NCBI GenBank assembly: GCA_947165255.1
Contig: CAMUZR010000008.1
Coordinates: forward strand, 1 to 64,000
Direction of reading: 5' to 3'
Source of the DNA: an uncultured Bacteroidales bacterium
GTDB lineage: Bacteria; Bacteroidota; Bacteroidia; Bacteroidales; P3
Length of the DNA: 64,000 bases
Under the pieces are notes generated by a model. That model did not search any database. It was not told the origin of the DNA and saw only the letters and a list, made by a program, of their open reading frames with translations. This document shows positions 15,606 to 50,045 of this stretch, one piece after another (position 1 is the stretch's first letter; each line of letters opens with the position of its first letter). The position numbers were made by a program, and so were the translations under genes.

Positions 15606-15637
15606 TTTGCCGATTCAAAAAAAAATAAGTATTTTTG
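15606..15637 (+). promoter_or_regulatory. Promoter of the RM-SIR2 operon
   Basis: TTTG (15606-15609), 20 bases, then TATTTTTG (15630-15637): a full match to the Bacteroidota sigma consensus. The ATG follows 20 bases later. As no second promoter is seen before the SIR2 gene, it probably drives both. Confidence 0.75.
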
Positions 15638-15656
15638 CAACCTAAAAATAGGTGCT

Positions 15657-18600
15657 ATGCTTTTTCAGAAGAATATAATCAAGAAATACCTTGCTCTACT
15701 GGAACCAGAAAAAGTAAGGTGTGCATGGGAACAATATAAAAGCTACTTTCTCAATACTGAGGTACAACAAAATATACTTCAATGCAAAGAAGAGCAGTTT
15801 CAAGAGGGGTTCTTGCTTGAGCTTTTTGTCAAAGTATTAGGCTACACTCTCAACCCATCGCCCGACTACAACCTCATTACCGAGCAGAAGAACGAGACCG
15901 ACACCAAGAAAGCTGACGGTGCTATTCTTCAGAATGGCAAAGTCGTTGGTGTAATAGAGTTGAAAGACCATAAGACCACAGACCTTTCGAAGGTTGAAGC
16001 ACAAGCTTTCAATTATAAGAGCCAGCATCCTGATGCTCGGCTGGTCATCATCTCCAACTTCGAGAAACTGCGTCTTTATATTGATAACGCCGTCGAACAT
16101 CGTGAGTGGAATCTTTTCCACCTCTCCGAGCAGGAGTTCCGCGAACTATATCTCTGCCTTGCGTGGCCACAAGTGCAGCGTGATGTGGTCTGCTCAATGA
16201 AACAAGATTCGTTATCCACCGAAGACCAAATAACCAAAGACCTGTATAAAGACTATTCGCAGTTCAAACGTGCCCTTTTTGCCGACATCATTACCCAAAA
16301 TCCCTATCAAGCAGGCAACTCATGGGCTGAGGACGAGAAATCATGGCAACTTTTGCTTTTCAAGAAGACGCAGAAACTGCTGGACCGCTTGTTATTCATT
16401 TTCTTCGCCGAGGATGGCGGACTGCTGCCACCAAATTCGATGGTTCGCATCATTGAACAATGGGAGCAACTAAAAGAAATGGACGAGTACCGCCCGCTTT
16501 ACAACCGTATAAAGAAATACTTCGGTTATCTCGACACTGGCCACAAGTTCCCCAAATACGAGTTATTCGCATACAACGGTGGGCTCTTCAAGCCCGACGA
16601 AGTACTGGATAACATACTAATCAGCGACGAGCCTTTGGTGGAACACACTCGCCGACTCTCCACCTACGACTTCGAGAGCGAAGTTGACGTGAACATCCTC
16701 GGCCACATCTTTGAGAATTCACTGTCAGAGATCGAAGAAGTAAGCCAGAAAATCAGCAGTGGTGAAATCCCAAAGGCCTCTAAGCGCAAGCAGGATGGCG
16801 TGTTCTACACCCCGCAATATATCACCAAGTATATTGTCGAAAACACAGTTGGCCGTCTCTGTAGCGAAAAGAAATGTGAATTGGGCATTGTGGAAGAGGA
16901 ATATTTCGCTGACAAGAATCGTCAGAAATCCACCAAGAAACGCCTCTTACAGCAACTACAGCAATACCGCGAATGGCTCATGCAACTCACTATCCTAGAC
17001 CCCGCTTGTGGCAGCGGAGCCTTTCTCAATGCTGCGCTGCAGTTCCTAATGGCAGAACATGCCCTTATTGACGAAATGGAGGCTAAACTGACAGGTTCCA
17101 GTATAGTCTTCCAAGGAATCGAGAACAGTATTCTGGAAAATAATCTGTACGGTGTGGACATCAACGAAGAGAGTGTCGAAATAGCTCAGCTAGCCCTCTG
17201 GTTGCGTACTGCCAAACCTCGCCGCAAACTCAACACACTTAACAAGAACATCAAATGCGGCAACTCCCTTATCAGCGACCCTACTGTCGCTGGAGACAAA
17301 GCCTTCGACTGGCAGAAAGAATTTCCCCAAGTCTTCGAGAAAGGAGGCTTCGATGTGGTCATTGGCAATCCACCATATGTTCACTTAGAAAGCATAACAG
17401 AGACTTCCATTCAATTAGAGCAGCTGGGATACAGAACATATAACAAACGTGGAGACTTATACTGTATCTTTGTAGAGAAAGCTTTCCAATTAGCCAAAAC
17501 GGGAGGCTTAGTGTCATATATTATGCCAAATAAATGGCTTCAGGCAGGCTATGGGAAGGAATTGAGAAGTTATTTCTTGGGCAAACGCTTGGATAAACTC
17601 ATTGATTTTGGCGATATTCAAATATTTGATGGTGCAACTACTTATCCATGCATATTTATCGGAAGGAATGATATTCCCAAAAAGCAACTATCAGTATCTG
17701 TACTAAATGCAGCTAATGCAAATGACTTTAACCATAATGTTGCCACAACAGAGGAGCTCTTCGACATCTCACAATTCAGCAACGACACTTGGGTTATTTC
17801 TTCGCAAAAGGATAAGGTACTTATTGGGAAACTGGCAAACAATAACCAAACATTGAAAGAGCATATAGGAGGTGAAGCATATCGAGGCGTCCTAACTGGT
17901 TTATCTGAGGCATTCCTTATAGATTCAAATACATACCAAACAATCATAGAACAGGATGAACATGCAAAAGAGCATATACATCCATTCCTTCAAGGGCGGA
18001 ACATAACCCCATACGGTAAAGCCGAAGCCCAAAACTACCTGATACTATTCTCAAAAGGCTGGACACAAAGAGAACATTACTTTGAGAACGAAAGCGACGC
18101 ATGGAACCACTTGAAATCCAAATATCCTTCAATAGCATCATGGTTAGAGCCTTTTGCCGAGAAAGGCAGAAAACGGACGGACAAAGGCGATTTTTGGTGG
18201 GAACTTAGATCATGTGATTATTATGAGATATTTGACAAGCCCAAAATAATGTACCAAGCATTTCAAGTGAAGCCGTGTTTTATTTATGACACAGATGGAT
18301 TCTACTCAAATAATTCTATGTGGTTCATTCCAACCGAAAACAAAGCCCTATTAGCAATTCTCAATTCCCGAATGGGTTGGTGGCTAATAACTAAGTTATG
18401 CTCACAAATCCAAGGAGGATATCAGTTGATTTGGAAATATTTTGGACAAATACCGATTGCAGATTGTAATGACAAATGCCTTTCTCCCCTTGCTGACAAA
18501 ATGCTTTCCCTCAATGCCCAGTTGCAAGACAAGCGTAGTCGTTTCCTGCAACGCCTAACAGACAATATTGAGGTTGCAACGGTAACGACAGCCTTGCAGA

Positions 18601-18860
18601 CATTCGACCAGATGGACTTTTCTGACTTTGTGGCTGAACTGAAGAAGCAGAAAATCAAACTCACCCTCCCGCAACAGGATGAGTGGGAGGACTACTTCCG
18701 CCAATACGCCGACGTTTGCCACCAACTCACCGACCAAATTGCCGCTACCGACCGCGAAATAGACCTCCGAGTATATCACCTCTATGGCCTCACCTACGAC
18801 GAAGTCCTCACCACCGACCCAAAAACACGAATAACTAAGGAGGAATACGAATCCTTATAG
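15657..18860 (+). CDS. Type IIG-like restriction-modification protein (nuclease + N6-adenine methylase + specificity domain)
   Basis: 1067 aa, a single-chain restriction enzyme and methyltransferase. The N-terminus carries a PD-(D/E)XK-type nuclease signature, ADGAI at 86-90 with D87 and VIELKD at 99-104. The methylase core has motif I DPACGSGAF (from D448) and motif IV NPPY (571-574). Beyond about 700 there is a TaqI/Eco57I-like recognition region (QGGYQLIWKYFGQIPI), then a helical tail. Expected to cut unmodified DNA and methylate adenine in the host site; specificity unknown. It is followed after 17 bases by the SIR2 gene. GC content is below the flanking housekeeping genes. Confidence 0.88.
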   Translation: MLFQKNIIKKYLALLEPEKVRCAWEQYKSYFLNTEVQQNILQCKEEQFQEGFLLELFVKVLGYTLNPSPDYNLITEQKNETDTKKADGAILQNGKVVGVIELKDHKTTDLSKVEAQAFNYKSQHPDARLVIISNFEKLRLYIDNAVEHREWNLFHLSEQEFRELYLCLAWPQVQRDVVCSMKQDSLSTEDQITKDLYKDYSQFKRALFADIITQNPYQAGNSWAEDEKSWQLLLFKKTQKLLDRLLFIFFAEDGGLLPPNSMVRIIEQWEQLKEMDEYRPLYNRIKKYFGYLDTGHKFPKYELFAYNGGLFKPDEVLDNILISDEPLVEHTRRLSTYDFESEVDVNILGHIFENSLSEIEEVSQKISSGEIPKASKRKQDGVFYTPQYITKYIVENTVGRLCSEKKCELGIVEEEYFADKNRQKSTKKRLLQQLQQYREWLMQLTILDPACGSGAFLNAALQFLMAEHALIDEMEAKLTGSSIVFQGIENSILENNLYGVDINEESVEIAQLALWLRTAKPRRKLNTLNKNIKCGNSLISDPTVAGDKAFDWQKEFPQVFEKGGFDVVIGNPPYVHLESITETSIQLEQLGYRTYNKRGDLYCIFVEKAFQLAKTGGLVSYIMPNKWLQAGYGKELRSYFLGKRLDKLIDFGDIQIFDGATTYPCIFIGRNDIPKKQLSVSVLNAANANDFNHNVATTEELFDISQFSNDTWVISSQKDKVLIGKLANNNQTLKEHIGGEAYRGVLTGLSEAFLIDSNTYQTIIEQDEHAKEHIHPFLQGRNITPYGKAEAQNYLILFSKGWTQREHYFENESDAWNHLKSKYPSIASWLEPFAEKGRKRTDKGDFWWELRSCDYYEIFDKPKIMYQAFQVKPCFIYDTDGFYSNNSMWFIPTENKALLAILNSRMGWWLITKLCSQIQGGYQLIWKYFGQIPIADCNDKCLSPLADKMLSLNAQLQDKRSRFLQRLTDNIEVATVTTALQTFDQMDFSDFVAELKKQKIKLTLPQQDEWEDYFRQYADVCHQLTDQIAATDREIDLRVYHLYGLTYDEVLTTDPKTRITKEEYESL

Positions 18861-18877
18861 TCAAATCCTTCAACGCT

Positions 18878-21754
18878 ATGGAAAACAACACACAAATATC
18901 TCAATTGACAAAACTGCATGAGGCATCAAAACAAGGACGACTGGTTGTTTTTGTTGGGGCTGGAGTATCAGCTAATTCAGGTGTGCCAACGTGGGGAGAA
19001 TTAATAACTGCCTTAAAAGATGATTTGCCGAAGAGCCTTTCTAACGAGAAGGATGACCTTAAAATCGCCCAAATCTATAAAGACTCATATGGATATAAAG
19101 ATTATTTCAAAAAAATCAGAGATGTCCTTAAGGATGGAAGAGTAGCATGCAATCCAATTCATCATGCCATTTTAGAATTGGATCCAGTTCATATTATAAC
19201 CACGAATTATGATGATTTGATAGAGCAAGCCATACAAATTGACTACAAACAATATGACGTTATTTCTAAAGACAATGATTTGCCATACTATCGCTTCCCC
19301 AATAAACTGGTCAAAATGCACGGCGACTTTAAAACAGGGAATATTATCCTTGCGGAGGAAGACTATTATAATTATGCCACCAATTTCCCATTAATAAGAT
19401 CTTTTGTCACATCGCTATTCACTACAAATATTGTCTTATTTGTGGGATTCTCATTCTCCGACCTTAATTTAAAAGTTATTTTGAATGACTTGAAGAACAT
19501 TCTCGACAAGGATATGCAAAGAGTATATTTATTGTTGAGTGATGTGACAATAGATAAAGAAACATTCAGATACTATGAGCAGAAGGGTATAAATATTGTT
19601 AATATTGCCAACGCAAATGAGTATGTTGATACACTCAAAATAAACATTAATGACTTGGAACTTGCCAAAATAAAAAGCGAAAAGGGGAAGGTTCTATATC
19701 AACAACTGCAGATTATTAAACAATTTGAAGAAATTGCATCCGACAATATTGTTTCACGACTATATCATTCTTTAAAATCCATTCAGCAAGAATTAACGAT
19801 GCTCGGTGATGGAATCAAATATGTTTTTCCTGCTAAAGAGAGGCCTTATTGGAATTATTATTCTAGTGGTTTGCAAATAGGTTCTAAGTCTTTTGAAATA
19901 ATTGCCCAAGAGCTAAAAACACTCAAAGGGCGGCGTTCATTTGTTTTGAGACACCCTAAAAATGAAAGAGATTTCCTAAAAAAGCAAGCCATGTTGCAGG
20001 GAATACTCAAAATAGACGATTTCCCGGTTCTAACAGAGTATGACCGCAATCATTGTGGAGAAAAACTTAGTGAATACAAAACCATAGACGATTTTTATGA
20101 TTTAGATTTCAATTCTGTAATATTACAAATCAATTCATTAAGCCAAGCAGGACTGTATTATGACAAAAGGGATTTGATTTTGCCATATCTATTATGTAGA
20201 GTTGGCCGTTTTTATGATGCATATTTAATATATACATCTAGAATTACTGAGTTTTGGAGAAAAGAGCTATATGTGTTGTACTTCATTAGTTTGTACAATA
20301 TGTATCAGATTCGTTATCGAATACAAGCGGAACTCATGTACCGAAAGGATATTGATGCAGAAGGTATCTTTGAGGATATTGGCAAATTTGATTTAGAGAC
20401 ATTACTGAATAGAATGCCCATTGCTCCTGCTATAAAGCTGACAATGAGAGATCTTTTTTATAATAGAATTTTTAGCGAAAATGCGAAAGAAGCCGAGCGT
20501 TTGGCAGGAGAACTTCACAAACAAAAAAAACAATCCAAAAAGGGTGGAGTTTCTCAGAATAGCAATGTGCCAAATCTGAAATCAAAGTTTTGGAGGGTAT
20601 TCCAATTTTGTGTACGGAACTGTATTGAATACAACAATTCATTCTTTTATTTTTTGGCAACTGATACTATTATTGGGATACTCAATAGCCATACAACAAA
20701 AGACAATATGATTGCAGGTTTTTTTCAACCTTCAAAGATACATAAGTTAAGCGATAAAGATTTGTTTATTTTGATTTCTTTTATTGGCACAAGAGAATTA
20801 ACTGATATTTTTAAACAGTATGAAATAGATAGCATTGTATTGGATAATAATGCGGTAAAATACCTGAAGGAAAGCGTGAGTAAAATGCACAATTCTATGT
20901 TTGAAAAGGGAATTTTTGGAGACATGCAAACAAAGGAGCTCCCGTTTAGAGTATCTCACATTCAGTATATCATTGGAAATATAATATATGTTATAAGTAA
21001 ATGTGCCAATGAAAAATCCAATGAAACCATCGACAAATTATATAAGATAATACATGCCTATCCCAAATTGTTGTTTGATTCAGCTAATGTGAATAATCTC
21101 CATGGAATAATAAAAAAATACACTCCATCTAACCAAATGGCAGTATCTCTCATAAAAGATTGCCTTCTTAATAATACCACCGACACAATAGGCTTAATTA
21201 CGACTTTATCGTCAAAACTATCTACATCGAATTTTGTTTTTGACGATTGTTTGGATTTCAAACAATTGGTACGCAGTGATGGCGAGATCGGTCTTGCCAT
21301 GTATAAGATTTTACCCAAAGATATTCAGAAGAAGTATTTAGATTACATATTTATGCATTGCAAAAGCCTAATCCATTATTTACGAATAATGAATAGAACT
21401 CAGACATGTCCTTCTGATTCTTCAACTCTTCAAAGTCTTTGTAACGAATATCAGCAAGACGACAATTACTTGGGAGTCTTTCAATATATAACCAGTTTGC
21501 GAAAAAACAAAATCTTTTCTGATTTGTATAAACTATTCGACAAGTTTGGAGAAAAACATGATATTTATCATTTTATACTATCCCCTTTAGAGTTTAATAT
21601 TAATGATGTTGAACCAGAATGGTTGCAGTGTTGTTCGGACGAAGAGATACGAGATTTATTGAAAGACGAATCCTTGCGTGAAAAAACAAAGAACTATATT
21701 CAAACTGATCAAATTGGTAAAAAAAATTATAAAAGAATCTTTTCGTTGCTGTAG
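18878..21754 (+). CDS. SIR2-domain antiphage-type protein with large C-terminal region
   Basis: 958 aa. The SIR2 NAD-binding motifs are GAGVSANSGVPTW (27-39), TTNYDD (108-113), the catalytic-type histidine in KMHGD (H148) and GFSFSD (190-195). The remaining 650 or so residues are mostly helical by composition and not recognised; no membrane segment is evident. Length and layout resemble defence-associated sirtuins (DSR1/DSR2), which deplete NAD+ on phage infection (known family). Whether this one does so is inference. It is strikingly AT-rich compared with the genes flanking the island, suggesting transfer. Co-transcribed with the restriction enzyme. Confidence 0.85.
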   Translation: MENNTQISQLTKLHEASKQGRLVVFVGAGVSANSGVPTWGELITALKDDLPKSLSNEKDDLKIAQIYKDSYGYKDYFKKIRDVLKDGRVACNPIHHAILELDPVHIITTNYDDLIEQAIQIDYKQYDVISKDNDLPYYRFPNKLVKMHGDFKTGNIILAEEDYYNYATNFPLIRSFVTSLFTTNIVLFVGFSFSDLNLKVILNDLKNILDKDMQRVYLLLSDVTIDKETFRYYEQKGINIVNIANANEYVDTLKININDLELAKIKSEKGKVLYQQLQIIKQFEEIASDNIVSRLYHSLKSIQQELTMLGDGIKYVFPAKERPYWNYYSSGLQIGSKSFEIIAQELKTLKGRRSFVLRHPKNERDFLKKQAMLQGILKIDDFPVLTEYDRNHCGEKLSEYKTIDDFYDLDFNSVILQINSLSQAGLYYDKRDLILPYLLCRVGRFYDAYLIYTSRITEFWRKELYVLYFISLYNMYQIRYRIQAELMYRKDIDAEGIFEDIGKFDLETLLNRMPIAPAIKLTMRDLFYNRIFSENAKEAERLAGELHKQKKQSKKGGVSQNSNVPNLKSKFWRVFQFCVRNCIEYNNSFFYFLATDTIIGILNSHTTKDNMIAGFFQPSKIHKLSDKDLFILISFIGTRELTDIFKQYEIDSIVLDNNAVKYLKESVSKMHNSMFEKGIFGDMQTKELPFRVSHIQYIIGNIIYVISKCANEKSNETIDKLYKIIHAYPKLLFDSANVNNLHGIIKKYTPSNQMAVSLIKDCLLNNTTDTIGLITTLSSKLSTSNFVFDDCLDFKQLVRSDGEIGLAMYKILPKDIQKKYLDYIFMHCKSLIHYLRIMNRTQTCPSDSSTLQSLCNEYQQDDNYLGVFQYITSLRKNKIFSDLYKLFDKFGEKHDIYHFILSPLEFNINDVEPEWLQCCSDEEIRDLLKDESLREKTKNYIQTDQIGKKNYKRIFSLL

Positions 21755-21924: not shown

Positions 21925-22947
21925 ATGAAGAAAAAAGAAATACAACAAACCCAGCATAGCATCGTCCTCTATCAGAACGACGATAGCAATGTATGTGTCA
22001 ACGTTTACTACAACAATGAGACCTTCTGGCTGACACAGAAAGCTATGGCGGAGCTATTTGGCGTGAATACTCAGGCTATAACGAAGCATTTGGGAAACAT
22101 CTACCAAGAACAGGAACTGAATAAAGAGGCAACTTGTTCCAAAATGGAACAAGTTCAACAGGAAGGAGGCCGTCAGGTAAAACGATTCGTTGATTTCTAC
22201 AATCTTGACGCTGTTATCGCTGTCGGCTATCGCGTCAACTCCCATCAGGCGACGGCCTTCCGTATTTGGGCCACCAAAACCCTGAAGGAATACATCACAA
22301 AGGGCTTTGTCTTGAATGACGATATGCTCAAGAACGGACAGCCTTTCGGGAAAGACTACTTCGACGAGTTGTTGGAACGTATCCGTGAGATTCGCGCCAG
22401 CGAGCGCCGAGCCTACCAAAAAATTGCCGATGTGTTTGAACAATGCAGTTACGACTACGACAAGAAAAGTGAGACAACCAAAGCATTCTACTCCTTCGTG
22501 CAGAACAAGCTGCATTTTGCTGTGACGGGAAAGACCGCAGCGGAACTTATCTACGAACGTGCTGATTCAAACCAGCCTACTATGGGACTGACCACATGGA
22601 GTGATGCGCCCGATGGGAAGATACTGAAACGTGACGTCACCATCGCCAAGAATTATCTGAACGAGAAAGAGCTGTCGCGACTCAACCGCTTAGTGACAAT
22701 GTTTATTGACTATGCCGAGCTGATGGCCGAAGATGAGATATTGATGAGCATGGCCGACTGGCTGAAACAGACCGATGTGTTTCTCTCCACCAACCGCCGC
22801 AATATCCTTGCCGATAAAGGTACTGTTTCTCACGACCAAGCCGTTGAAAAAGCTACCAAAGAATACGAGATATTCCGCGTCCGCCAAGACCGCGAATACA
22901 TCTCCGACTTTGACCGTGAAACCGAAAAATATTTGAAAGGTGAATAA
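21925..22947 (+). CDS. RhuM-family protein, copy 1 (full length)
   Basis: 340 aa, RhuM (virulence protein) family, widespread in defence and mobile regions, function not established. Seen: a helix-turn-helix-like segment FWLTQKAMAELFGVNTQAITKHLGNIY, the conserved FYNLDAVIAVGYRVNSHQATAFRIWATKTLKEYI core, and a helical C-terminal half. Its first 120 bases of coding sequence are nearly identical to the third copy, while the following 45 codons are unrelated. It starts 170 bases after the SIR2 gene. Confidence 0.85.
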   Translation: MKKKEIQQTQHSIVLYQNDDSNVCVNVYYNNETFWLTQKAMAELFGVNTQAITKHLGNIYQEQELNKEATCSKMEQVQQEGGRQVKRFVDFYNLDAVIAVGYRVNSHQATAFRIWATKTLKEYITKGFVLNDDMLKNGQPFGKDYFDELLERIREIRASERRAYQKIADVFEQCSYDYDKKSETTKAFYSFVQNKLHFAVTGKTAAELIYERADSNQPTMGLTTWSDAPDGKILKRDVTIAKNYLNEKELSRLNRLVTMFIDYAELMAEDEILMSMADWLKQTDVFLSTNRRNILADKGTVSHDQAVEKATKEYEIFRVRQDREYISDFDRETEKYLKGE

Positions 22948-23562: not shown

Positions 23563-23624
23563 GAAAGGCATATAATGTATGTGGGCTGATGTGATAATAA
23601 ATGAAATATAGTGGTTGTAAGAAT

Positions 23625-24668
23625 ATGACAAAGAAAGATAATAACGAATTGGCGAACAGCAATCAAGCGTTCCTGATATATCAGGACGACAACGGAATCA
23701 CGCAGGTAAATGTGAGGTTTGAGGGAGAAGATGTGTGGCTCCCAGTGGAGCTAATTATGCAGCTTTTCGATGCTTCACAGCAGGATGTGAGCTATCATAT
23801 TGGACAGATTTATGCGGAGGGAGAACTGGACAAAGAACGAACTCACAAAAAATTTTTGTTAGTTCGCCAAGAGGGCAATCGAAGTGTGAACCGTCAGATT
23901 AGCCACTACAACCTTGATATGATTATCGCTGTGGGTTATCGCGTGAAGTCGCAGGTGGCCACACGCTTCCGACAGTGGGCAACGGCTCACCTCCATGAGT
24001 TCATTCAAAAGGGCTTCACGCTGGACGATAATCGACTGAAAGGCAATCGTAGCCGATATTTCAGGGAATTGTTGCAACGCATCCGCGATATTCGCAGTAG
24101 CGAACGCAACCTGTATCAGCAGGTGACGGACATCTTTATTACGAGCATTGATTACGACCCCAATGCCAACCTTACGCGTCAGTTCTTTGCATCTGTGCAG
24201 AACAAGCTGCATTATGCTGCTCATCACCATACGGCTGCGGAGGTGATATATGAAAGAGTAGATGCTAACAAGCCCATGGTGGGAATGACAAACTTTAAAG
24301 GAAGCTATATCACAAAAGATGATGTACAAGTTGCCAAGAATTATCTAACGGAGCAGGAGTTGACCTATCTAAATCTGCTTGTGTCTCAGTATTTGGATTT
24401 TGCCGAAATACAGGCTCTCCAACAAGTACCTATGAGAATGCAGGAATGGATAGAGAAATTGGATGAACTGATGAAACTTTCCGGCAGACAATTACTGGTA
24501 GGCAAAGGGACTATCAGCCATGAAGAGGCCAAGCAAAAAGCCGTTTCCGAGTTCGAGAAATATCGAAAAATGGAGATGCTGCAATACGAAAGCGACTACG
24601 ACAGAGCCATCAAAGAGCTAATCCAAAAAGAAAATAGCCTGCCAGAAGCAGGAGACAAAGTTGAGTAG
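23625..24668 (+). CDS. RhuM-family protein, copy 2 (divergent)
   Basis: 347 aa from MTKKDNNELANS. It has the RhuM layout (VWLPVELIMQLFDASQQDVSYHIGQIYAEGEL, HYNLDMIIAVGYRVKSQVATRFRQWATAHLHEFIQKGF, SVQNKLHYAAHHHTAAEVIYERVDANKP) but is only moderately similar to copies 1 and 3, so it is an older paralog or separate arrival. The ATG at 23625 is preferred to one at 23601 because alignment with copy 1 starts later. Role unknown. Confidence 0.85.
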   Translation: MTKKDNNELANSNQAFLIYQDDNGITQVNVRFEGEDVWLPVELIMQLFDASQQDVSYHIGQIYAEGELDKERTHKKFLLVRQEGNRSVNRQISHYNLDMIIAVGYRVKSQVATRFRQWATAHLHEFIQKGFTLDDNRLKGNRSRYFRELLQRIRDIRSSERNLYQQVTDIFITSIDYDPNANLTRQFFASVQNKLHYAAHHHTAAEVIYERVDANKPMVGMTNFKGSYITKDDVQVAKNYLTEQELTYLNLLVSQYLDFAEIQALQQVPMRMQEWIEKLDELMKLSGRQLLVGKGTISHEEAKQKAVSEFEKYRKMEMLQYESDYDRAIKELIQKENSLPEAGDKVE

Positions 24669-25055: not shown

Positions 25056-25187
25056 ATGACAGAAACCAACCGCATAGAATTCAAACGAGAACTGACAGAA
25101 GACCTTGACATAGAAAAAGAGATAAAAATGCTATTATGTACCAGCTGTTTCCTCATAGATTGTAAACAAAACACGCAGCAATTATGA
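25056..25187 (+). pseudogene. 5' remnant of an AlbA/Schlafen-type ATP-binding protein gene
   Basis: 43 codons starting MTETNRIEFKRELTEDLDIEKE, the characteristic start of Bacteroidota AlbA-2 proteins, then switching to unrelated MLLCTSCFLIDCKQNTQQL. Its stop overlaps the ATG of the third RhuM gene by four bases (ATGA), so the fragment may now act as a translated leader. Confidence 0.65.
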
Positions 25188-25885
25188 TGAAAAAAGAAAT
25201 ACAACAAACCCAACATAGCATCGTCCTATATCAGAACGACGATAGCAATGTATGTGTCAACGTTTACTACAACAATGAGACCTTCTGGCTGACACAGAAA
25301 GCTATGGCGGAGTTATTTGGATGCTCGACCGACAATATTTCCCTCCACTTGAAGAAAATCTTTTCCGAAGGAGAACTGGATAAGGATTCTGTTACCGAGA
25401 AAAACTCGGCAACTGCTTCCGATGGCAAGAACTACCTAACTACTTTCTATAATCTTGATGCTGTTATTGCTGTTGGTTATCGTGTCAATTCCCATCAGGC
25501 GACGGCCTTCCGTATTTGCGCAACTAAAACCTTGAAAGAATATATCACCAATGGTTTTGTGTTGAACGATGATATGCTCAAGAACGGTCGGCCTTTCGGT
25601 AAGGACTATTTTGACGAGCTGCTTGAACGTATCCGCGAGATTCGTGCCAGCGAACGCCATGCCTACCAGAAGATTGCCGATGTGTTTGAACAATGCAGCT
25701 ACGACTACGACAAGAAGAGTGAGACGACTAAGGCCTTTTACTCTTTTGTGCAGAACAAGCTGCATTTTGCTGTGACCGGCAAGACGGCTGCGGAACTCAT
25801 CTTTGAGCGTGCCGACTCAGCCCAACCCACTATGGGACTTACCACTTGGAGTGCTGCCCCCGACGGCAAATTACTTCTTCGGTGA
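25184..25885 (+). CDS. RhuM-family protein, copy 3 (C-terminally truncated)
   Basis: 233 aa against 340 in copy 1; it stops after SAAPDGKLLLR, losing the last 107 residues. Residues 2-46 are almost identical to copy 1, the next 45 or so (CSTDNISLHLKKIFSEGELDKDS...) are different, and the remainder is again close, mostly with silent changes. One oddity is C in RICATKTL where copy 1 has W. It may be non-functional or a truncated DNA-binding form. Confidence 0.7.
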   Translation: MMKKEIQQTQHSIVLYQNDDSNVCVNVYYNNETFWLTQKAMAELFGCSTDNISLHLKKIFSEGELDKDSVTEKNSATASDGKNYLTTFYNLDAVIAVGYRVNSHQATAFRICATKTLKEYITNGFVLNDDMLKNGRPFGKDYFDELLERIREIRASERHAYQKIADVFEQCSYDYDKKSETTKAFYSFVQNKLHFAVTGKTAAELIFERADSAQPTMGLTTWSAAPDGKLLLR

Positions 25886-49825: not shown

Positions 49826-49833
49826 CAATTTCG

Positions 49834-49906
49834 TGACTAAGCTGGGGCTCGAACCCAGGACCCCATCCTTAAAAGGGATGTGCTCTACCTGCTGAGCTAC
49901 TTAGTC
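49834..49906 (-). tRNA. tRNA-Lys (TTT), copy 2
   Basis: 73 nt. Acceptor GACTAAG/CTTAGTC, D arm AGCTCAGCAGGTAGAGC, anticodon stem CATCC/GGATG with loop CTTTTAA, T arm with GGTTCGAGCC. CCA is not encoded. Identical to the copy 16 bases upstream. Confidence 0.97.
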
Positions 49907-49922
49907 TCCCATATTATCTCTG

Positions 49923-49995
49923 TGACTAAGCTGGGGCTCGAACCCAGGACCCCATCCTTAAAAGGGATGTGCTCTACCTGCTGAGCTACTTAGTC
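49923..49995 (-). tRNA. tRNA-Lys (TTT), copy 1
   Basis: 73 nt, identical in sequence to the downstream copy; first of the tandem pair, about 14 bases after the predicted transcription start. Confidence 0.97.
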
Positions 49996-50014: not shown

Positions 50015-50045
50015 CAAAAGTACAACTTTTTTCTCTTTTAGCAAA
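50015..50045 (-). promoter_or_regulatory. Promoter of the tRNA-Lys pair
   Basis: On the minus strand TTTG (50045-50042), 19 bases, TACTTTTG (50022-50015): both Bacteroidota boxes. Confidence 0.75.

Follow-up and report, generated by a model that had tools for sequence, protein, structure and literature searches.

A 64,000-nucleotide stretch of DNA from an uncultured Bacteroidales bacterium (contig CAMUZR010000008.1; 'the window' throughout) carries a gene for a type IIG restriction-methylase closely followed by a gene for a large SIR2 protein, and we consider it probable (roughly 0.6) that the two form a two-layer defence operon, in which IIG restriction is combined with a co-transcribed, exchangeable, DSR2-like abortive-infection module that senses a phage protein via its C-terminus. 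This reading draws on the gene order, the domain content of the two proteins, the DSR2 fold and invariant catalytic residues of the SIR2 protein, the recurrent adjacency of its relatives to restriction or bacteriophage exclusion (BREX) genes, and the exchange of those partners.

The IIG gene and the DSR2-like gene behind it

The core of the locus consists of two co-directional open reading frames (ORFs) on the plus strand, 17 bases apart from stop to start. The ORFs and the PADLOC and Pfam matches agree with an earlier note on this DNA, which had described a 1067-residue restriction-methylase followed after 17 bases by a 958-residue SIR2 protein. The features are as follows.

15606..15637, plus strand: Bacteroides-type promoter match, TTTG-N20-TANNTTTG (full match, 10 of 10 letters of the consensus)
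15657..18860, plus strand: type IIG restriction-methylase, 1067 amino acids (Pfam, PADLOC, motifs)
18861..18877, plus strand: spacer, 17 bases (ORF coordinates; terminator and promoter scans)
18878..21754, plus strand: DSR2-like SIR2 protein, 958 amino acids (Pfam, profile and AlphaFold comparison)
21925..22947, plus strand: RhuM-family gene (PADLOC PDC-S05), 170 bases 3′ of the SIR2 gene

The Bacteroides −33/−7 promoter consensus is TTTG-N20-TATTTTTG, and the full match that the earlier note had reported ahead of the restriction-methylase is indeed present. The window holds 5 full matches versus 0.79 expected from shuffles, so this single match is suggestive and no proof. In the 300 bases 5′ of the SIR2 gene, the best promoter-like site agreed with 7 of 10 consensus letters, which is not above background (when the plus strand of the window is cut into tiles of 300 bases, 7 of 10 is the most frequent top score, found in 99 of 213); a promoter of the SIR2 gene's own, which the earlier note had named, along with independent activity, as refuting the link, was thus not seen by consensus. 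A scan of the junction found no plus-strand terminator-like site between the two genes. Given the promoter match before the IIG gene, the lack of one above background before the SIR2 gene and the uninterrupted junction, a single IIG–SIR2 transcript appears likely.

The 1067-residue protein matched the PADLOC REase_MTase_IIG model near its full length (E = 2.6 × 10−276, residues 2–1051) and the Pfam domains Eco57I (2.6 × 10−50), N6_Mtase, TaqI_C, MmeI_hel and HSDR_N. It contains the motifs ELK (residues 101–103), which we take to lie in an N-terminal nuclease-like region, and DPACGSG (448) and NPPY (571), presumably belonging to the methyltransferase. With a nuclease-like N-terminus, a methyltransferase and a TaqI_C-like specificity region in a single chain, as in Eco57I/MmeI-like type IIG restriction–modification (R–M), the protein has the appearance of an intact enzyme of this type; nothing out of the ordinary was seen in it, and the unusual part is the gene behind it.

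SIR2_2 (1.2 × 10−25) was the only Pfam match in the 958-residue protein at E ≤ 0.001, and the C-terminal 650 residues had at first been called unrecognised. Profile and AlphaFold comparison (the model being a monomer, and DSR2 itself a tetramer held together by SIR2 and middle-domain contacts) nevertheless matched the protein to Bacillus DSR2 along its whole length, and those residues are recognisable as the middle and C-terminal sensor domains of DSR2; the structural comparison that the earlier note had proposed therefore gives a whole-length fold match, and an unknown fold for the C-terminus is ruled out. Approximate limits place a SIR2 NADase-type domain at about residues 1–250, a middle domain (MID) at about 285–600 and a sensor-like C-terminal domain (CTD) at about 601–958. 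Residues N110 and H148 align to N133 and H171 of DSR2, for which passages of two studies of the Bacillus protein describe catalytic roles (PMC10981675, PMC11087589), and are invariant in 48 of 48 alignment rows. The protein scores 72.8 bits against the NCBIfam Dsr2 equivalog, far under the cut-off of 1400, and hence is DSR2-like, not DSR2 proper. Identity to the window protein differs among domains (SIR2/MID/CTD identities of 100/98/94% for the relative P0001, 87/81/93% for P0004, 92/85/57% for P0006, 84/75/65% for P0007 and 76/60/41% for P0009), and in 46 of 47 relatives (all but P0004) it is lowest in the CTD, a variation that fits a domain tracking a changing trigger. Taken together, P0004 and P0006 look mosaic.

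Partners and neighbours of the SIR2 gene

Relatives of the SIR2 protein numbered 2056 at E ≤ 0.001, some of which are not full-length kin. From the 80 best of 138 confirmed places in a genome scan, retained as 80 loci, we defined a SIR2 clade as the loci scoring >500 bits with the A1 profile, comprising 19 distinct loci including the window (L002, L104 and L102 were left out as duplicates of L007 and L016). Upstream sequence was assessable in 18, L013 being left out of the adjacency count since its contig ends some 240 bases upstream.

A restriction or BREX gene lies directly beside the SIR2 gene in 12 of these 18 loci and within two genes in 15, spanning types IIG, I, II and III as well as BREX. 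In ten loci it is the next upstream gene on the same strand, separated from SIR2 by anything from a 4-base overlap to 108 bases: a IIG gene in five (the window, L004, L006, L007 and L015), HsdR in L005 and L009, HsdS in L016, a ResIII gene, itself behind a methylase, in L017, and PglX in L012. PglZ is directly downstream of SIR2 in L008 and L026. Within two genes are a IIG gene one gene further upstream (L003, whose AAA gene was labelled by eye and has no PADLOC match), a weakly LlaJI-like gene (8.2 × 10−6) with REase_II-like and methylase genes 265 bases upstream (L010), and a Schlafen gene, then PglZ, downstream of SIR2 (L011). The family-tested BREX labels are PglX of L012 and PglZ of L008 and L011; PglZ and PglX of L026 were labelled by BLAST to L012, and the labels BrxC and BrxL were given without a family search.

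As a control, we used 70 more distant SIR2 relatives (>100 to 448 bits), in 44 of which a gene on the same strand lies no more than 250 bases upstream; among these 44 genes, at least 5 carry restriction Pfam domains and at least 6 are integrases. Upstream restriction genes were more frequent in the clade (10 of 18 versus at least 5 of 70, Fisher P = 1.8 × 10−5; versus at least 5 of 44, P = 5.6 × 10−4), and a hypothetical control count of 12 of 44 would give P = 0.045. When two genes to either side are considered, a restriction-type BLAST match to genes of clade loci is present in 8 of 70 control loci (L039, L051, L053, L055, L057, L061, L069 and L073; on the other strand in L057 and L069) versus 15 of 18 clade loci, a comparison of different tests in which the control's BLAST is the less sensitive. 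Among the control loci are four whose start is no more than 400 bases from a contig end, some near-duplicates and eight from viral contigs, and upstream genes were called from 60 amino acids, compared with 80 in the clade; raising the minimum to 80 residues lowers the number with a same-strand gene at most 250 bases upstream from 44 to 39 of 70 and gives 11 loci a different upstream gene, and one new upstream gene (in L086) falls outside the domain test. Two of the distant relatives, in Streptococcus and Thermincola records (L051:6530–15749 and L073:8734–16196), lie between HsdS-like and HsdR-like genes.

Across the tree of 19 SIR2 rows, the partner label (IIG, type I, type II, type III, BREX or other; L003 is other and L013 uncounted) changes at least nine times. 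The labels were fixed ahead of the first tree, and the pairing of the window with L006 was picked for testing afterwards. Approximately unbiased tests rejected a single clade of the five IIG rows (p-AU = 2.5 × 10−7), a single clade of the four BREX rows (p-AU = 4.8 × 10−56), and a sister relationship of the window and L006 SIR2 rows, which have a common IIG subfamily (p-AU = 1.5 × 10−4); L006 and L015 entered the tree as partial sequences, L006 as an N-terminal piece only. The IIG gene of L006 is 56% identical to that of the window and has the same 17-base spacer. Its SIR2 gene (L006:9998–12874) is broken by one in-frame stop, reflecting either sequencing error or decay.

Viewed from the IIG side, the exact IIG–SIR2 pair is uncommon. 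Among 189 genomes of the family, 16 carry a IIG relative at E ≤ 1 × 10−60 and 14 are assessable (in G026 and G105 the contig ends right after the IIG gene); SIR2 follows in two of these (G000 and G085). The earlier note had held that homologs rarely found adjacent would refute the link, and a neighbourhood survey of the kind it proposed returns a divided answer: adjacency is rare when one starts from the IIG gene, but common when one starts from SIR2, where the neighbours are then restriction and BREX genes of various types. Elsewhere, the slot behind the IIG gene is taken by a TIR-TPR gene 12 bases on (G176), an AIPR gene 23 bases on (G052), a pentapeptide-repeat gene with a 4-base overlap (G075), an ORF 20 bases on that is cut by the contig end and has no Pfam match (G001), a protein without a Pfam match behind a fragmentary IIG gene (G132), or a co-directional 208-residue gene 122 bases on (G096). 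Six genomes have nothing co-directional within 150 bases (G073, G047, G111, G103, G023 and G114); in G073 and G047 the junction is similar to that of G075 and may hold leftovers of the pentapeptide gene. In six relatives, the nucleotide match to the window ends at 18850–18851, 7–10 bases short of the IIG stop codon or of its end; by this and by its lower G+C content (33.0 versus 44.0% in the IIG gene), the SIR2 gene looks to have been swapped in.

Coordinates of several such arrangements are as follows. A IIG relative is followed 12 bases on by a TIR-TPR gene, another NADase-type effector, in L133:7380–11483; a IIG-like gene, an AIPR gene and a HATPase gene follow one another co-directionally in L135:5336–12889; and a gene pair of about 210 and 283 residues, which on visual inspection look like a regulator and a nucleotidyltransferase-like gene, recurs 3′ of IIG at varying distances in three genomes (L129:10483–11967, L132:7804–9300 and L125:3891–5402).

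Additional clade members were sought in the own family, order and class and in further families, with matches in 2/190, 3/393, 1/14, 1/395, 1/393 and 3/399 genomes under differing cut-offs and queries and overlapping genome sets. Beyond the window they re-found known loci (G085 is L007 and G550 is L016; by score and position, G1143, G1314 and G1200 are L009, L013 and L012), and G206, whose match spans residues 1–301 only, was excluded. No plasmid record (368 with partial matches) or phage record (2 with partial matches) covered 80% of the SIR2 query, and a viral-contig scan gave 19 loci (best E = 4 × 10−42), 0 of them in the tight clade. Relatives on plasmids or phages were set aside on these results; the SIR2 gene may nonetheless spread by mobile elements.

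In the window, the RhuM-family gene at 21925–22947 is a possible downstream member of the unit, which the two-layer reading does not need; a RhuM relative is also directly 3′ of SIR2 in L004 and L016. It is the first of three consecutive RhuM-family genes (the others at 23601–24668 and 25184–25885), the first two of which match PDC-S05 candidate defence models. Over 236 columns, the first shares 82% identity with the third, which is shorter (233 amino acids); identity between the first and second is 43%. Farther along, two tRNA-Lys (TTT) genes 15 bases apart (49833–49995) have a same-strand full Bacteroides promoter match just upstream (50015–50045).

Proposed mechanism and rival explanations

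As a two-layer system, the operon would act in sequence. The IIG enzyme, to judge from its domains, would methylate host DNA and cut unmodified incoming DNA. If phage expression goes on, the CTD of the SIR2 protein would bind a phage protein made in infection (from homology to, and the fold shared with, Bacillus DSR2), and, as in DSR2, the middle domain would relay the signal to the SIR2 domain, which would hydrolyse NAD+ and halt the cell ahead of phage release. The IIG and SIR2 genes would have a common promoter, their products probably no obligate contact, and the SIR2 gene would be an exchangeable module beside restriction or BREX genes; co-transcription, the trigger, NAD+ loss and the independence of the two proteins are thus what we infer.

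Several findings weigh against this reading. The SIR2 protein resembles DSR2 only remotely (identity about 18% over the whole-length fold match and about 30% in the SIR2 domain), the CTD profile match of 32.8 bits includes a large composition correction (bias 26.6), and root-mean-square deviations are high (8.6 over the whole length, 5.2 at the C-terminal end); the trigger may therefore not be that of DSR2. In the close relative P0004, the CTD is better conserved than the middle domain (93 versus 81%). Three of the 18 loci (L014, L021 and L031) have no recognised restriction or BREX neighbour of SIR2, the downstream genes of all three being unsearched and L021 having had one upstream gene searched; L031 carries other candidate defence genes. 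A preference for restriction neighbours is, moreover, not demanded of an independent sensor. Finally, nucleotide similarity between the window and L006 crosses the IIG–SIR2 junction (67% over 1114 columns), and with their equal spacers it is possible that the IIG–SIR2 pair is older than the protein tree suggests, the SIR2 gene having changed later.

That shared junction and tight spacing would also suit a single integrated system, with the IIG protein as the sensor that directly switches the SIR2 protein. The earlier note had offered either a layered defence or such sensing by the methylase-like protein. We retain the former, with one probable transcription unit and an NADase-type SIR2 effector; the latter we set aside as the main reading and regard as very improbable, since partners change (at least nine times on the tree) and the SIR2 protein has its own DSR2-type sensor domains. 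The IIG-linked rows do not form one clade, the window and L006 are not sisters, and just 2 of the 14 assessable IIG genomes have SIR2 as the following gene. Passive hitchhiking, with the 3′ ends of restriction and BREX genes as common landing sites from which SIR2 gains only a promoter, would account for the unrelated genes (SIR2, TIR-TPR, AIPR and pentapeptide) that fill the slot, for the end of similarity before the junction in six relatives and for the G+C content of the SIR2 gene (33.0%, versus 44.0% in the IIG gene and 47.8% across the window). Several slot genes are, however, toxin-like, and the distant SIR2 relatives of the control are less often restriction-linked than the clade, by either comparison, making hitchhiking improbable in our view.

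A further rival, unlikely but to be taken more seriously than those two, is that the SIR2 protein guards restriction itself, depleting NAD+ only when it senses an anti-restriction protein (compare AriA of PARIS with Ocr) or inhibition of the neighbouring enzyme (compare PrrC). The DSR2-like clade might then be a general NADase guardian whose variable CTD recognises anti-restriction proteins or restriction inhibition, one scaffold backing IIG, I, II and III enzymes and BREX. This rival is kept live by the clade's preference for restriction and BREX neighbours of several types and by defence pairs inside SIR2-bearing BREX operons: a PARIS-like pair in L026:4401–17495 (AriB by PADLOC, 6.8 × 10−33; partner with AAA_15/AAA_21 domains), a weaker PARIS-like match in L012:4829–15374 (69 and 55 bits to the L026 pair) and a Septu-like PtuA/PtuB pair in L008:7003–15369. 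PrrC and PARIS are, moreover, established restriction guardians in passages of a 2025 review (PMC12707154; for PrrC also PMC3506569). Bacillus DSR2, in contrast, is an NADase of the same fold that is triggered by a phage tail tube protein, according to passages of PMC10981675 and PMC11087589. Neither PrrC nor AriA/AriB is among the 18 PADLOC families matched by the SIR2 protein (E ≤ 0.001), and the three loci without a recognised restriction neighbour also count against guarding. Partner exchange speaks against guarding one specific enzyme, yet not against direct sensing of an anti-restriction protein.

Known systems and wider meaning

DSR2 is a stand-alone single gene, whereas the SIR2 gene of the window encodes a protein of low identity to it, sits 17 bases behind a IIG gene and has no promoter match of its own above background; most of its clade, too, is encoded beside restriction or BREX genes. 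What the two proteins have in common is domain order and fold over the full length and the catalytic Asn and His (passages of PMC10981675, PMC11087589). PrrC and PARIS, in passages of PMC12707154, are likewise suicide genes that back up a restriction or BREX locus from within it or next to it; 12 of 18 clade loci, the window among them, have SIR2 directly adjacent to such genes, but here the suicide gene encodes an NADase-type SIR2 protein with a DSR2-type sensor rather than a tRNA nuclease with an ATPase, and no PrrC or Ari family matched it. Passages of a 2012 study (PMC3506569) already link Sir2 enzymes to type I R–M, describe toxins displacing each other in R–M loci and put forward an immunity–suicide coupling hypothesis; those passages are silent on type IIG and BREX partners, on the DSR2 fold and on any exchange of partners inside a single Sir2 clade. 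DarTG2 embedded in type I R–M (passages of PMC12255303) is likewise one defence within another's operon, with a different effector. The passages of a domain review (PMC10952713) that list the SIR2 systems Thoeris, SPARSA, DSR1, DSR2, Sir2-HerA, Avast V and PD-T7-2 give no restriction or BREX partners for them, and our literature search, covering titles, abstract openings and passages, found no named IIG–SIR2 or BREX–SIR2 pair. Coupling of restriction to a Sir2 toxin is thus already known as a proposal, and what is added here is the DSR2 identity, a wider range of partners and measured partner exchange.

The C-terminal two thirds of the SIR2 protein, together with many relatives, are now placed in the DSR2 sensor fold, and one sirtuin clade recurs beside different DNA-modification defences. 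If guarding of restriction were its role, the clade would be the SIR2 counterpart of PARIS and PrrC. The fold assignment and the recurrent adjacency make the immunity–suicide coupling idea of 2012 directly testable, on one scaffold and with natural partner swaps.
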